A DNA stretch of 64,000 bases from NCBI GenBank assembly GCA_029262455.1, contig JAJCZJ010000090.1, positions 62,001 through 126,000 of the forward strand. Direction: 5' to 3'. Of the stretch, positions 35,634 to 45,764 are shown piece after piece. Below the pieces are notes generated by a model that worked only from the letters and a program-made list of their open reading frames with translations, did not search any database and was not told where the DNA came from. The stretch's first letter is position 1. The number at the start of each line of letters is the position of its first letter. The stretch comes from Deltaproteobacteria bacterium. Its GTDB lineage: Bacteria > Desulfobacterota > Binatia > HRBIN30 > CADEER01. The position numbers and the translations under genes are program-made.

Positions 35634-35653
35634 TTGGATCTCCTTGTAGGGGC

Positions 35654-35716
35654 GGGGTACGGGGTACGGGGTACGGGGTGCAGGGTACAGGGTACAGGGT
35701 ACAGGGTACGGGGTAC
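35654..35716 (+). repeat. tandem heptamer repeat (GGGGTAC/AGGGTAC), nine units
   Basis: Nine consecutive 7-bp units: three GGGGTAC, one GGGGTGC, four AGGGTAC, one GGGGTAC, with no gaps. The array sits between the divergent crotonase and LEH-type genes, 20 bp upstream of the crotonase start. Such arrays are known in several bacterial groups and are prone to slippage; each unit holds a GTAC palindrome. Confidence 0.9.
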
Positions 35717-35780
35717 GGGCCATTCTGGAATGTTTGGCCGGCTTTGGATATCCAGTTGCCAACAGAAAGTGGGTGAGCTG

Positions 35781-40559: not shown

Positions 40560-43025
40560 TCAGAAACTCTGGCTGATTTCGACGCCCCACCAGCGCGGGG
40601 GTTGGTAGTACTTTCCGACCACGAGTGTTGCGCGTGGGCCGAGAGCGATCGAATCGCGGAAGTACTCCTCGTCGGTCACGTTGTTCACGAACAACGCAAG
40701 ACTCGTCTTGTCGTTGTTGAATGCGTAGGTCGAGCGAAGATTGAGCAAGTGGAACTTGGGTTGGATGAGCTCCGGAAGCTCGATCGCCCAGTTGGTCGTC
40801 CGGCTCTGCCAGGACCAATCGAGGCGTGGCGTGAAACTTCCGTCGGTCCACGCGGGGCCGAGGTCGGCGATTTCGAACGAGTATTGTGCTCCCAGGTGTG
40901 TTTGCCACTCTGGAAGAAAGTTGAACCGCTGGCCGGCCCGGTTGATGAGTTCGTCTGTACGCGAGTGTCTGGTATTTGCGAAGTCGTCGTAAACTGCGTC
41001 GAGGTACCCTGCCGAAGCTCGTACGGCCATCTGCGGCAGGGGCTGGGCAAGTAGCTCGATTTCGAATCCCTGAGCGGTCGATTGGCCGGCATTGGTCGTC
41101 AGGATATCGAAAACCGGGGCAGCGCAGGTGTCGCATGGAATCACTTGCGGAATCTGCTGATCGCTGCGTTGGTGGCGGAAGTAGGCGGCACTCAACGAGA
41201 GTCGGTGATCGAAGAGAAGGCTCTTCACGCCCCACTCCAGGGACTCGATTGTCTCCGGCTTGAATGGGATGCGAAGGGCGTCGGTGGTGAAGCGCGCATC
41301 GCCATTGAAGCCGCCGCCGCGGAAGCCTTCGCTGTAGGTGAAGTATCCCATGAGGTGTTCGACCTCGACCACTTCCAGCCACGAGTCCGGTACTGTGAGG
41401 GAGAGGGTGCCCATCGGCGAGGCGTCAGTGAAGATCTCGGACTCACTGAAGTTGACGGGAAGCGGATCTCCGGAGAGGGGATTGCCCTCCTCGACCTCAC
41501 CGTTCGGCTGGCGCAGTATACGGGAGAGTCCCTTCTTTTCCTGGGTGTAGCGAATGCCTCCGGTAAGGCTCAGCCATTCCCAGGGAGTGAAGGTGGCTTG
41601 GCTGTACACCGCCCAGTCCCAATTGCTCGTTTTCACGTCGCCCCGGCTCAGACCGAGACCCAGCGGCGGCTCAGAAACCAATGTTCCAGGGAGGAGGCTT
41701 ACGCCAAAGTTGTTCTCGGCGTTTTCCCAATAACCAAAGACGCCGCCGACGACCTGAATCCGGTCATCGGCTGCCGACATGTTGACCTGCATCTCCTGCT
41801 GAATCTGGCGTTGCTCGCCGGGCGCGCCGCCGATGTCGACGACCTCGCCCGCTCGCGGTCCGGTCCCGGTGACCAGATTCGGTCCGCCTCCGGCCGTAGA
41901 GGCAGTGAAAAGCGGGAAGGGGGTTTGATCCAAATCGGTGCGTCCGCGTGGCCGTTGCTCGCGCCAACCCGATCGGAGCATGACGCTGACGTCTTCGAAA
42001 ATCAGCAAGTTTCCGACGTCCCAGTTGAGGATCCCCCAGGTGCCGTAGCTCGAGATGTCGAAGAATCCGTGGTCATCCGATTCGACGCGAAACGGCGTGG
42101 TGGCGTTGCATCGGTCGCGGTACTCGTCGCGCGAGGATCCATTTGCCGTGAGAATCTGATCGATGGAACCCAGGATCAGTCCGAACGCGGTATCCACCGC
42201 TTCTGGCTCGATGTAGATGCACTTGGCCCCCAAGCCTCTGGTATGGCTCTTGGACCACATGCCGCTGACGTCGATGGTAACGTCGTCGCTCGCCAGGAAT
42301 CGCAGGGACCCCAAGAAGTTGATCGAGTTGCGGTCAGCGACGTCCTCGTCTCGAAAGGAGTTGTAGACGTATCCGTCGTGGTTGAAGCTGGCGAACGTGA
42401 AACGTCCGAAGAGCCGATCTTCGAGAGTTTCCAGGCCGAACGCAATTGGCAGGTTCAGCGTCGCTTTGGTGTCGATTTGGTTGTAGCTGCCGGCGCGTAT
42501 GAACAGCGACGACGAAAACTCGTTCTGTGGCTTGATCGTCGTAATGTTGATGGCGCCGCCGAGAGTATTCTTTCCAAACAGAGTGCCTTGCGGGCCACGC
42601 AGGACCTCGACTCCCGCTGTGTCGACGATGTCGAGAATGGTGCCAGGGTTGCGGGCCAGATAGATGCCGTCGACATAAACGCCGACGCCTTGGTCGAAGT
42701 GGATGCTGGGGAAGTTCCCGACCCCGCGCATATTGAAGGATGCGGTTTGGCCGTTGGCGCCGCGCAGCATCGTTAGATTCGGAACCATCGTTTGGATCTG
42801 ATCGATGCTGGTCGTGCCGGTGACGCTGAGTTGATCTGCATTGAAGGCTGTTACTGAGACGGGTGTTTCCTCGAGCAGCTCGGCTCTTTTGCGAGCGTAT
42901 ACGACGATCTCGTCGACCGCCCCGACGCGTTTCGCTTTCGACTCTTGCGCCGGCGACATCGCCGGAACTAGTGCGATGATTGCGACGAGGATGACGACTG
43001 CCCTGATGCCTGCTGGATTGATCAA
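40560..43025 (-). CDS. TonB-dependent outer-membrane receptor
   Basis: An 821-residue outer-membrane receptor with signal peptide (RAVVILVAIIALVPAMSPAQ), an N-terminal TonB-box-like segment (DEIVVYARKRAELLEETPVS), a plug domain (MVPNLTMLRGANGQ, EVLRGPQGTLFGKNTLGGAINI) and a beta barrel ending in Phe (VEISQSF). The plug sequence belongs to the broad class of carbohydrate, sterol or xenobiotic receptors; substrate not determined. I prefer TTG 43025, after GGGGGGAG, over the GTG at 43061, which has no such site. The divergent neighbour is a Baeyer-Villiger monooxygenase, suggesting uptake coupled to oxidation. Confidence 0.9.
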   Translation of the reverse strand: MINPAGIRAVVILVAIIALVPAMSPAQESKAKRVGAVDEIVVYARKRAELLEETPVSVTAFNADQLSVTGTTSIDQIQTMVPNLTMLRGANGQTASFNMRGVGNFPSIHFDQGVGVYVDGIYLARNPGTILDIVDTAGVEVLRGPQGTLFGKNTLGGAINITTIKPQNEFSSSLFIRAGSYNQIDTKATLNLPIAFGLETLEDRLFGRFTFASFNHDGYVYNSFRDEDVADRNSINFLGSLRFLASDDVTIDVSGMWSKSHTRGLGAKCIYIEPEAVDTAFGLILGSIDQILTANGSSRDEYRDRCNATTPFRVESDDHGFFDISSYGTWGILNWDVGNLLIFEDVSVMLRSGWREQRPRGRTDLDQTPFPLFTASTAGGGPNLVTGTGPRAGEVVDIGGAPGEQRQIQQEMQVNMSAADDRIQVVGGVFGYWENAENNFGVSLLPGTLVSEPPLGLGLSRGDVKTSNWDWAVYSQATFTPWEWLSLTGGIRYTQEKKGLSRILRQPNGEVEEGNPLSGDPLPVNFSESEIFTDASPMGTLSLTVPDSWLEVVEVEHLMGYFTYSEGFRGGGFNGDARFTTDALRIPFKPETIESLEWGVKSLLFDHRLSLSAAYFRHQRSDQQIPQVIPCDTCAAPVFDILTTNAGQSTAQGFEIELLAQPLPQMAVRASAGYLDAVYDDFANTRHSRTDELINRAGQRFNFLPEWQTHLGAQYSFEIADLGPAWTDGSFTPRLDWSWQSRTTNWAIELPELIQPKFHLLNLRSTYAFNNDKTSLALFVNNVTDEEYFRDSIALGPRATLVVGKYYQPPRWWGVEISQSF

Positions 43026-43070
43026 CTTGTTCTCCCCCCGGACTTGGCTTGTTTGGTGCACTGTCGCTAA

Positions 43071-43102
43071 CTTGATTGACCTAGTCGGCCAATTTGATCA
43101 AG
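43071..43102. promoter_or_regulatory. nested palindrome in the TonB receptor/BVMO divergent region
   Basis: Outer arms CTTGAT (43071-43076) and ATCAAG (43097-43102) enclose a second inverted repeat, TTGACC and GGCCAA, at 43076-43092 around TAGTC. The site lies between the divergent starts at 43025 and 43165. A TetR-type regulator site is plausible, but no regulator gene is adjacent. Confidence 0.45.
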
Positions 43103-43164
43103 GTTTGCGAGATGTTCTGTGTTTACTCTCGGTTGAGCAGCCCTATGACCGAAGGATCGGTTTT

Positions 43165-44628
43165 TTGAAGAGATCGGCTCCAAAGGTTGCGATCGTGGGA
43201 TCCGGGTTTGGTGGTATCTGCATGGGGATCCAGCTCCGTGAGGCCGGCTATGAGGACTTCTCGATCTTTGAGAAGGGCGATGGCCTCGGTGGGACTTGGC
43301 GGGCCAATACCTACCCCGGGTGTGAATGTGACATTCCTTCGGCTCTCTACTCCTACTCGTTTGCGCCGTATGCCGAGTGGCCGAGTAAGTGGTCGCACCA
43401 ACCGGTGATTCTTCACTATCTCGAAAAGTGCGCCCGGGACTTCGGAGTGTTGCCGCATTTGCGACGATCGACGGAGGTCTCGTCGATCGAGTGGATTGAA
43501 GGTGACCGAAAGTGGAAGTTGACGACGGCGAGTGGGTTGACTGAGAACTTTGATATCGTCGTCTCAGCGACAGGTCAGCTCAGTCGTCCTCGGTTTCCGA
43601 GCATCGAGGGGCTAGACGAGTTTTGCGGTACGGCATTTCACTCGGCGCGTTGGAATCACGATCACGATTTACGCGGCCGGCGTGTCGGAGTGATCGGTAA
43701 CGCGGCCAGCGCGATTCAGTTCATCCCGGAAATCGCACCGATCGTCGAGCACTTGACCGTGTTTCAGCGCAGCGCGAACTGGATGCTGCGCAAGAACGAT
43801 CGAGACTATTCCGAACTCGAAAAGAAGGTGCTGCGGGCGTTTCCGGCACTGAGCAAGCTGCGACGACTTTCGATCTGGCTCTTCGGTGAGTTGCTTATCT
43901 ACCCGGCGATGCGCAGCGGCGAGAGCAAGCTGCGCGAGCGCCTGGTCAACAATACACTCGAGTATATCAACGACACGATTGCGGATCCCGAGCTACGCAA
44001 GAAACTGATTCCCGATTATCCACTCGGTGCGAAGCGGATTCTGTTTTCGGACAACTACTATGAGGCGTTGGCGCGCGACAATGTCGACGTCGTGACCGAG
44101 TCGATTGAGCGAGCGTGCGCCGAAGGGGTTGTGACGGCGGATGGCCGGACCCACGAAGTGGATACGTTGATCTACGCCTCGGGATTCCAAACCAACGACT
44201 TCCTGACGCCGATGCGCGTTGTCGGGTTGGGCGGACAGGTCCTGAACGAGGTCTGGCGCGATGGGCCGGAAGCGTGCTTGGGCATCACGGCGTCGGGATT
44301 TCCGAATCTTTTTTTTCTCTACGGTCCCAATACCAATCTCGGCCACAGTTCGATCGTGATGATGATCGAATCGCAGGTGCGCTATGTGATGTCTTGCCTC
44401 GACCAGATGACATCGCAGGGAATCGCGGCCGTCAACATGCGGGAAGAAGTGCAGCGCGAATACAACCGCGAGATGCAGGATCGTTTGGCGGGCTCGTCGT
44501 GGGCGACGGTCGGTGACAGCTGGTATGTGCACGACGGCAAAGTGACCAACAACTGGCCCGGCCGCACGACCGAGTATCGCAAGCGAACGAAGCACTGCGA
44601 CCTGGCGGATTTCGAAGTCATCCAGTGA
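43165..44628 (+). CDS. flavin-containing Baeyer-Villiger-type monooxygenase
   Basis: A 487-residue FAD/NADPH monooxygenase. The FAD-binding Rossmann motif is VGSGFGG (residues 11-17), followed by GLGGTWRANTYPGCECD; the Baeyer-Villiger fingerprint F-x-G-x3-H-x3-W matches Phe153-Trp163 (FCGTAFHSARW); the NADPH-binding site is VGVIGNAASA. It would insert oxygen next to a ketone carbonyl, giving an ester or lactone. TTG 43165 is chosen for AAGGA at 8-nt spacing. It precedes the mini-ORF array, starting 14 bp after its stop. Confidence 0.9.
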   Translation: MKRSAPKVAIVGSGFGGICMGIQLREAGYEDFSIFEKGDGLGGTWRANTYPGCECDIPSALYSYSFAPYAEWPSKWSHQPVILHYLEKCARDFGVLPHLRRSTEVSSIEWIEGDRKWKLTTASGLTENFDIVVSATGQLSRPRFPSIEGLDEFCGTAFHSARWNHDHDLRGRRVGVIGNAASAIQFIPEIAPIVEHLTVFQRSANWMLRKNDRDYSELEKKVLRAFPALSKLRRLSIWLFGELLIYPAMRSGESKLRERLVNNTLEYINDTIADPELRKKLIPDYPLGAKRILFSDNYYEALARDNVDVVTESIERACAEGVVTADGRTHEVDTLIYASGFQTNDFLTPMRVVGLGGQVLNEVWRDGPEACLGITASGFPNLFFLYGPNTNLGHSSIVMMIESQVRYVMSCLDQMTSQGIAAVNMREEVQREYNREMQDRLAGSSWATVGDSWYVHDGKVTNNWPGRTTEYRKRTKHCDLADFEVIQ

Positions 44629-44642
44629 AGGAAGGTGTGGAC

Positions 44643-44699
44643 GTGAGCGAAGCGAGGTCATCGGAGCGCGCAGCGCGTACGGGAGCGGAACCAAGATGA
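44643..44699 (+). CDS. mini-ORF 1 of the 53-bp array, 18 codons
   Basis: Begins with GTG 14 bp after the monooxygenase stop, with AGGAAGG as a good ribosome-binding site. It encodes a small basic/acidic peptide ending EPR, and its TGA overlaps the next ATG. Whether it is translated is unknown; the first member of the chain is the one with the best site. Confidence 0.4.
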   Translation: MSEARSSERAARTGAEPR

Positions 44700-44960
44700 G
44701 CGAAGCGAGGTCATCGGAGCGCGCAGCGCGTACGGGAGCAAAACCAAGATGAGCGACGCGAGGTCATCGGAGCGCGCAGCGCGCACGGGAGCGGTGTCAG
44801 GATGAGCGAAGCGAGGTCATCGGAGCGCGCAGCGCGCACGGGAGCGGTATCAGGATGAGCGAAGCGAGGTCATCGGAGCGCGAAGCGCGTACGGGAGCGG
44901 TGTCAAGATGAGCGAAGCGAGGTCATCGGAGCGCGAAGCGCGTACGGGAGCGGCACCCAA
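44643..44960 (+). repeat. six tandem 53-bp repeats, each an ATGA-linked 18-codon mini-ORF
   Basis: Six direct copies with an exact 53-bp period start at 44643, 44696, 44749, 44802, 44855 and 44908. Each holds a start codon (GTG in copy 1, ATG in the rest), 18 codons encoding MSEARSSERAARTGA plus three variable residues, and a TGA overlapping the next start (ATGA). The last TGA overlaps the ATG at 44961 of a crotonase. Each unit also has ACGGGAGCGG about 12 nt before the following ATG, a possible ribosome-binding site. Copies differ only by substitutions, never by indels. On the minus strand the units read in long frames of a PYALRAPMTSLRS pattern. Confidence 0.95.
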
Positions 44961-44964
44961 ATGA
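44696..44964 (+). other. mini-ORFs 2-6 of the 53-bp array
   Basis: Five further 18-codon frames start at 44696, 44749, 44802, 44855 and 44908, each with stop TGA overlapping the following ATG. Differences are limited to substitutions: Lys for Glu at position 16 in copy 2, Asp for Glu at position 3 in copy 3, Glu for Ala at position 10 in copies 5 and 6. The last overlaps the crotonase start. No known domain; the sequence may act as a spacer or translation relay rather than for its peptides. Confidence 0.4.
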
Positions 44965-45764
44965 GCGAGATTCTGATCGAGAAGCCGCGGCCACACACGA
45001 CTGTGATCACGATGAATCGGCCGGAGCGGATGAATTCGATGTCGTTCGACCTGATGGTTCCACTGCACGACGCCCTGGACAAAGTGGCCGAAGACAACGA
45101 CACCTGGACGGTCGTCTTGACCGGAAGTGGTAAAGGATTTTGCTCCGGTGCTGACACGCGCGACATGGTCCCCCCGCCCAATGTCGACGGTCTGACGTTG
45201 ACTCGGATTGCCACGCGTTCGATGACTCTACTCGCCGATCTGGTGCCAAAAATGCGCCGCATGCCACAGCCGGTGATCGCGGCGATCAACGGAGCGGCGA
45301 TCGGTGGTGGCATGTGCCTTTCCCTAGGCGCGGAGATTCGTATCGCTGGAGAGTCGGCCTACTTCCGCGCCGCCGGAATCAACAACGGTCTGACCGCAAC
45401 TGAACTCGGCATGTCCTTCTTGCTGCCGCGTGCGATCGGGGCGACGCGAGCGTTTGAGATCGCGCTATCGGGTCGCGACGTCGACGCTGAAGAGGCGGCG
45501 CGCATTGGGTTGGTTTCGCGAACCGTGCCGGATGACCAATTGATGAATGAAGCGCTCGACCTGGCCGATCAGATCAACGGCTGGAGCACGCAAGGGGTAC
45601 AACTGACGAAACGCATGATGTGGGCAGGGCTCGAGACCGCAAGCTTGAATGCGGCGATCGAGCTCGAATCGCACACCCAACTCTTCGTACGGCTAACCAC
45701 GAAGAACTTCGAAGAAGCCGTCAAAGCCCGCGCCGCCGGAAGAAAACCAGTATTCGAGGATTAA
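44961..45764 (+). CDS. enoyl-CoA hydratase/isomerase (crotonase)
   Basis: A 267-residue crotonase-fold protein that would hydrate or isomerise an enoyl-CoA. The oxyanion-hole segments are LTGSGKGFCSGADTRD and AAINGAAIGGGMCLSLG, and the substrate loop is INNGLTATELGMSFLLPR, with a glutamate in the usual catalytic area. Its first codons (ATGAGCGA) are identical to the start of each 53-bp repeat unit upstream, and its ATG overlaps the last mini-ORF stop. The array therefore looks like a repeated copy of this gene's translation start. Confidence 0.92.
   Translation: MSEILIEKPRPHTTVITMNRPERMNSMSFDLMVPLHDALDKVAEDNDTWTVVLTGSGKGFCSGADTRDMVPPPNVDGLTLTRIATRSMTLLADLVPKMRRMPQPVIAAINGAAIGGGMCLSLGAEIRIAGESAYFRAAGINNGLTATELGMSFLLPRAIGATRAFEIALSGRDVDAEEAARIGLVSRTVPDDQLMNEALDLADQINGWSTQGVQLTKRMMWAGLETASLNAAIELESHTQLFVRLTTKNFEEAVKARAAGRKPVFED

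Follow-up and report, generated by a model that had tools for sequence, protein, structure and literature searches.

A 53-bp tandem array at a crotonase translation start in Binatia belongs to a dispersed repeat family and is probably a MIRU-like element

The window analyzed here is a 64-kb stretch of DNA (64,000 nucleotides) from a Binatia genome of 7.34 Mb in 127 contigs. On its forward strand, six tandem units separate a predicted monooxygenase gene from a predicted crotonase gene, with the following features (window positions):

43006-44628, + strand: upstream gene, FMO-like FAD-dependent monooxygenase (Pfam FMO-like PF00743, E 2e-15), stop TGA at 44626-44628
44628-44635, + strand: Shine-Dalgarno (SD)-like AAGGAAGG, 7 nt before the GTG at 44643
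44643-44695, + strand: unit 1, ORF VSEARSSERAARTGAEPR and stop, GTG start
44696-44748, + strand: unit 2, ORF MSEARSSERAARTGAKPR and stop
44749-44801, + strand: unit 3, ORF MSDARSSERAARTGAVSG and stop
44802-44854, + strand: unit 4, ORF MSEARSSERAARTGAVSG and stop
44855-44907, + strand: unit 5, ORF MSEARSSEREARTGAVSR and stop
44908-44960, + strand: unit 6, ORF MSEARSSEREARTGAAPK and stop, its TGA at 44962-44964 overlapping the crotonase ATG at 44961
44946-44950, + strand: GGGAG of unit 6; every unit has this motif, 10 nt ahead of the following ATG
44961-45764, + strand: downstream gene, enoyl-CoA hydratase/isomerase (crotonase) family, 267 aa (Pfam ECH_1, E 1e-47)

The longest open frame of the monooxygenase begins at TTG 42841. 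TRF placed the array at 44644-44968 (period 53, 6.1 copies, 92% matches, 0% indels, score 517), and it is by far the strongest tandem repeat of the window, far above chance. Read unit by unit, the copies start at 44643 (GTG), 44696, 44749, 44802, 44855, and 44908. Each of the six is an 18-residue ORF of the type V/MS[ED]ARSSER[AE]ARTGA... whose TGA overlaps the next ATG by 4 nt, and the crotonase start repeats the first eight bases of a unit (ATGAGCGA, 53 bp apart). An earlier note, made from the sequence of the window, had described six units of exact period that differ by substitutions and not by indels, an 18-codon ORF in each, a chain of overlaps running into the crotonase start at 44961, and the eight-base match; all of this was confirmed. 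Its frame arithmetic was also right, as the ATGA chain follows automatically from a period of 53 (2 modulo 3) and an ATGA at the unit boundary. Its statement that every ATGA is kept holds for the overlap at all boundaries but not for the letters, because unit 1 starts with GTG and the shared motif is DTGA. Twelve of the 53 columns vary among the units, eight of them within the last nine columns and one being the A/G of the start codon. The variable columns are distributed 4/3/5 over the codon positions, and the array thus gives no indication of constraint at the codon level. Chance or an assembly artefact was ruled out as the origin of the array, since substitutions distinguish the units inside one contig and the family described below is present in four assemblies. 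Strong folding of the array was likewise ruled out (the array had a z of -1.3 and a single unit one of +0.3). Elsewhere in the window, an imperfect heptamer array (GGGGTAC, about 9.6 copies) lies at 35653-35719.

Two potential ribosome sites flank or punctuate the array. The AAGGAAGG motif at 44628-44635 was probably the original site of the crotonase, judging from the orthologue in the same-genus genome G003, which starts GTGAGC; the array genome has these six letters at 44643, after AAGGAAGG. The GGGAG of each unit is a weak SD-like site supplied by the element itself, and identical letters are present in non-coding copies too.

A two-unit query found the array unit at many unlinked places of its own genome, and degenerate unit patterns also matched there at dispersed places, with zero control matches. 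A covariance model (R1) was built from 15 copies and used in a class-wide search with a cut-off of E 1e-5. It gave 38 matches in the array genome (G000), 37, 26, and 9 in its three same-genus relatives (G001, G002, and G003, in no particular order), and 2 elsewhere in the order, in one genome; the remaining 140 of the 145 class genomes had no match at this cut-off. The array unit is a member of a dispersed small-repeat family that, among these genomes, is almost confined to one Binatia genus. Plasmid relatives of the element were looked for and none were found. Several contigs end inside or beside family arrays (C119 at its end and C5 at its start in G000; C33, C77, and C96 in G002; C312 and C172 in G003), indicating that the repeats break MAG assemblies and that copy numbers are probably underestimated. 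Some copies adjoin tRNA genes (L272 and L274 in G003, L247 in G002), where, by eye, the repeated units carry duplicated partial tRNA ends. At G000 C126:39885-39897 (L281, about 2004-2017, sense strand), a predicted gene starts with ATGAGCGAAGCGAG (MSEAR), as if the first 14 bases of the unit had become its N-terminus.

The copies of the array genome fall into two subfamilies. Type N copies (GGCGATGGAGCGCAGCGAGG...) are intergenic, mostly 60-480 bp from genes, have no start-codon link, and form tandem arrays of period 52 at C122:50225-50430 (four units) and at the C119 end/C5 start. Type J copies, which begin (A/G)TGAGCGAAGCGAG... or with close variants, lie at junctions of same-strand genes at seven loci: the window array, C31:157483 (minus strand), C31:153531, C85:60032, C90:50812, C30:59392, and C27:8590 (argF/argG). 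All seven are in sense between same-strand genes, and at six the downstream start lies at the unit end, the exact starts at these loci being predictions of a codon-usage gene caller. C90:50812 has three units, one spacing of 54, and a downstream start 8 nt beyond the unit end. Coupling of the inner ORF to the downstream gene at -4 nt is exact at the window array and at C31:157483; the contact is TAATG at C85:60032 and C30:59392 and a 7-nt overlap at C31:153531, and among the seven junction loci checked no coupling was found at argF/argG and C90:50812. The link to a start codon emphasized in the earlier note, which had suggested a genome-wide search for the unit, holds at the seven type J loci but not for the non-genic type N copies, including those at C122:50225-50430. 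Copies that abut a downstream start (within about 13 nt) number 23 in sense (7 in the array genome, 15 in the three relatives, and 1 in G013, L313) and 0 in antisense. Such copies in the relatives either reach the ATG itself, as at hslU of G001 and G002 and at other genes, or stop immediately ahead of the SD. The junction placement of the array is not accidental.

The orthologous sites in relatives were then compared. The monooxygenase-crotonase pair is kept in G001 and G003, with crotonases 85-87% identical to that of the window, but the array is absent and unrelated spacers of ~100-130 nt take its place. The closest named crotonase relatives (84-87% identity), from a 'Candidatus Binatia bacterium' MAG and a second MAG, match G003 and G001 in their sequence at the crotonase start. 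At three of the six other junction loci, relatives carry DTGA stop/start overlaps without the element (reading frames read by eye). At C31:157483, these empty sites read ..ACG CGA TGA with ATGAGTCCGCG in G002 and ..GAG TCA TGA in G003; the G002 junction, ...GGGACGCGATGAGTCCGCG, compares with ...TTGATGAGCGAAG[..]AAAATGAGTCCGCG in the array genome, and this is the only single-copy locus with a plausible target-site duplication (ATGAG). The empty site of C31:153531 is ..GAG GGA TGA (G001), and those of C30:59392 are ..CGC GCA TGA (G003) and ..CGC GGA TGA (G002). At C85:60032 and argF/argG, relatives have 30-180-nt spacers instead of DTGA overlaps. Among orthologues in other genomes of eleven genes with start-abutting copies, 28 of 30 starts lack the element; it is kept at hslU (G001/G002, with a different hairpin sequence) and as one degenerate copy. 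This pattern points to dispersal, not conserved regulation: copies that spread with a preference for start sites, or pass a filter there, account for the placement better than a conserved regulator does.

Sister-species copies have the form AGGA-[stem 5-12 bp, loop mostly 3 nt]-GAGCYCATCGGAGCGCGNAGCGCGCACGGGRGC-AAA..AYG, with two hairpins. The first stem occurs in 26 distinct sequences and shows 97% pairing, a value inflated by the selection of stems for pairing, versus 51% after its 3' arms were reshuffled; the stem score threshold was reached by 41 of 45 sister-species copies versus 23% of random 45-mers. Covariation is evident in the first stem, where GCCC/GGGGGC changes together with GCTC/GGGAGC. 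For single sister-species elements, folding gave z values of -4.5, -4.7, and -2.7. Units of the array genome have no first stem, and shuffled sequences fold just as well.

These properties invite comparison with the MIRUs of mycobacteria. PMC12548453, citing Supply 1997, describes MIRUs as seemingly mobile repeats that insert at start codons; an ORF inside the repeat is coupled at -4 nt to the gene that follows, which likely keeps the insertion from harming expression much. Like these dispersed 40-100-bp repeats, which occur singly or in tandem, the Binatia family (here a 53-bp unit with 38 R1 matches) sits at start codons or DTGA overlaps that are empty in relatives, and its inner ORF makes the 4-nt overlap at the window array and C31:157483. 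Mycobacterial species without the repeat have few-base spacers, much like the DTGA empty sites of the Binatia relatives, and the variable tandem number of MIRUs is matched by differing unit numbers across loci of the Binatia family (one genome of the array species). The differences are that MIRUs belong to another phylum, that the Binatia core is not recognizably alike, and that the sister-species form has two hairpins with a variable first stem and often stands before the SD rather than at a DTGA. Judged against the MIRU description rather than the letters of M. tuberculosis MIRUs, the array would work like a MIRU; the earlier note missed both this pattern (PMC12548453) and the dispersed nature of the unit. 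A related case is VNTR 3239/ETR-F at M. tuberculosis fpg1, whose tandem 55- and 79-bp units end at the downstream start codon and are absent in other mycobacterial species, which have few-base spacers (PMC2734929). Repeat length there correlates with mRNA level, whereas the Binatia array is known from sequence alone.

We regard the array as a probable MIRU-like element, in which a small, non-autonomous member of a dispersed repeat family entered the crotonase gene at its translation start and later multiplied in tandem. Junction copies carry (A/G)TGA at their 5' end and usually ATG at their 3' end. We infer the following route. Insertion at a stop/start or start site would create a short ORF whose stop codon shares bases with the start of the gene downstream. 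If the mini-ORFs are translated, ribosomes could still reach the gene via coupling, or via the unit's own GGGAG-N10-ATG, which would make the insertion tolerable. Slippage or unequal exchange between the 8-bp direct repeats of unit start and gene start could then have produced six units, with the period of 53 keeping the ORF chain through the expansion.

The earlier note had proposed that the chain is a relay setting the number of ribosomes that reach the crotonase, a slippage-variable switch, or a source of small peptides; the comparison gives no support to these roles. Across the family, two of the findings that the note itself had named as refuting its reading are largely borne out: free breaking of the ATGA frame in relatives, and non-genic copies with no link to a start codon. 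A selected translational relay, in which six coupled mini-ORFs set or vary ribosome delivery and copy number is the tuning knob, is unlikely. The DTGA at six of six boundaries, the GGGAG 10 nt before each ATG, and the precedent of fpg1 (PMC2734929) would favor it, but relatives with the identical gene pair have no array, substitutions are evenly spread over the codon positions, and other family arrays are out of frame. The earlier note had also suggested comparing repeat number and frame among relatives: the array is absent in two of them and the frame is freely broken, the tandem arrays of the family having periods of 52, 53, 54, 59, 60, 61, 67, and 68. A 4-base chain requires a period of 2 modulo 3, which only 53, 59, and 68 fit, and the arrays of period 59 and 68 have no ATGA at the unit boundary. 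In G002 (C149 and C33; L243, L248), period-60 units each carry AGGAGG-N6-ATG and are mutually in frame, and the last continues in frame into hslU, whose protein may thereby gain an N-terminal extension. Because family periods take any residue modulo 3, the chain is not a property that the family preserves; in the window it most likely arose as a side effect of insertion at a start site together with 53-bp duplication, not as a conserved relay. Relay or dosage effects on the crotonase itself may possibly occur. A role of the array as a peptide gene, with an 18-residue product of the MSEARSSERAARTGA type, deserves hardly any credence: all six frames are open with a common N-terminus and like peptides are encoded at C31:157483 and C85:60032, but an open frame is a consequence of the GC-rich unit, changes within the array include E/D, A/E, and a free C-terminus, and other family copies read different frames or none.

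Two further explanations concern the origin of the unit and of its placement. A conserved cis-regulatory mRNA leader, with the family as a structured RNA controlling the genes it precedes, would account for sense-only placement before starts, the two-hairpin fold (z about -4.5 in relatives), and the covariation and retained pairing of the first stem (inflated, as noted, by stem choice). It is nevertheless improbable given the 28 of 30 orthologous starts without the element, unrelated targets (hslU, EF-P, acyl-CoA dehydrogenase, nucleotidyltransferase, and others, named by eye), many copies that are not close to starts, no Rfam match up to E 1 for five element-bearing loci, and loss of the first hairpin in the units of the array genome. 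Neutral local expansion of the crotonase start region without a mobile element, the null of the earlier note, is very improbable: the 8-bp direct repeat could seed slippage and codon-level constraint is absent, but the unit occurs at many unlinked loci of genome and genus, so the first unit was not made locally. What survives of that null is the tandem expansion step, which was itself probably neutral.

REP/BIME (REPIN) elements are palindromic repeats mobilized by RAYT (Y1) transposases and typically lie 3' of genes. The Binatia family resembles them in being short, palindromic, dispersed, non-autonomous, and clustered in tandem, and the array genome has Y1-transposase genes. It differs in that its copies abut gene starts in sense and no RAYT linkage was found; none of the eight Y1-transposase matches in the array genome had unit motifs within about 1.5 kb on either side.

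The MIRU way of living, with start-codon or DTGA insertion, a coupled mini-ORF, and tandem growth, has so far been known from mycobacteria, and the MIRU-like reading of the array would extend it to an unrelated, uncultured phylum. It suggests that stop/start overlaps are a general safe harbor for small repeats, and the family offers a natural series (1, 3, and 6 units, in and out of frame) for gauging how far translational coupling chains. It also illustrates that sense-only placement before gene starts can arise through dispersal without conserved regulation. Chances are about even that the copies constitute a family of small mobile elements, not described before, that targets translation starts in Binatia. 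Its basic form would be AGGA-hairpin-hairpin, with a first stem that is free in sequence but paired, and it would land in sense immediately ahead of SD or start codons; a derived branch would settle on DTGA overlaps and build ribosome-passable ORF chains. If so, the MIRU life style would have been invented independently, and either an insertion machinery or a strong filter would read the translation-start context.

Resemblance to actinobacterial repeats was also considered. In a 13-mer search, Nocardia suismassiliense yielded 9 copies (control: 1) and an Actinomadura yielded 6 (control: 2). Several of these lie at DTGA junctions, and one is a tandem pair of 77 bp; across 151 genomes of that actinobacterial family, the excess over control seems, by impression, modest. 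Between R1 and the Nocardia MIRU-like copies (77-bp tandem), essentially only the 13-base start that had been searched for matches. Shared ancestry with actinobacterial MIRUs is not claimed, as the 13-mer was picked by the search itself, the core is unmatched, and the excess seems modest. In N. suismassiliense, the 77-bp tandem MIRU-like units (ATGAGTGAGCGAAGCGAGCGAATCATG...; L377, G148:C1:1222474-1222563, minus strand) end at a gene start, and similar single copies occur before an sdhA-like start (L380) and in Actinomadura operons (L386, L387).
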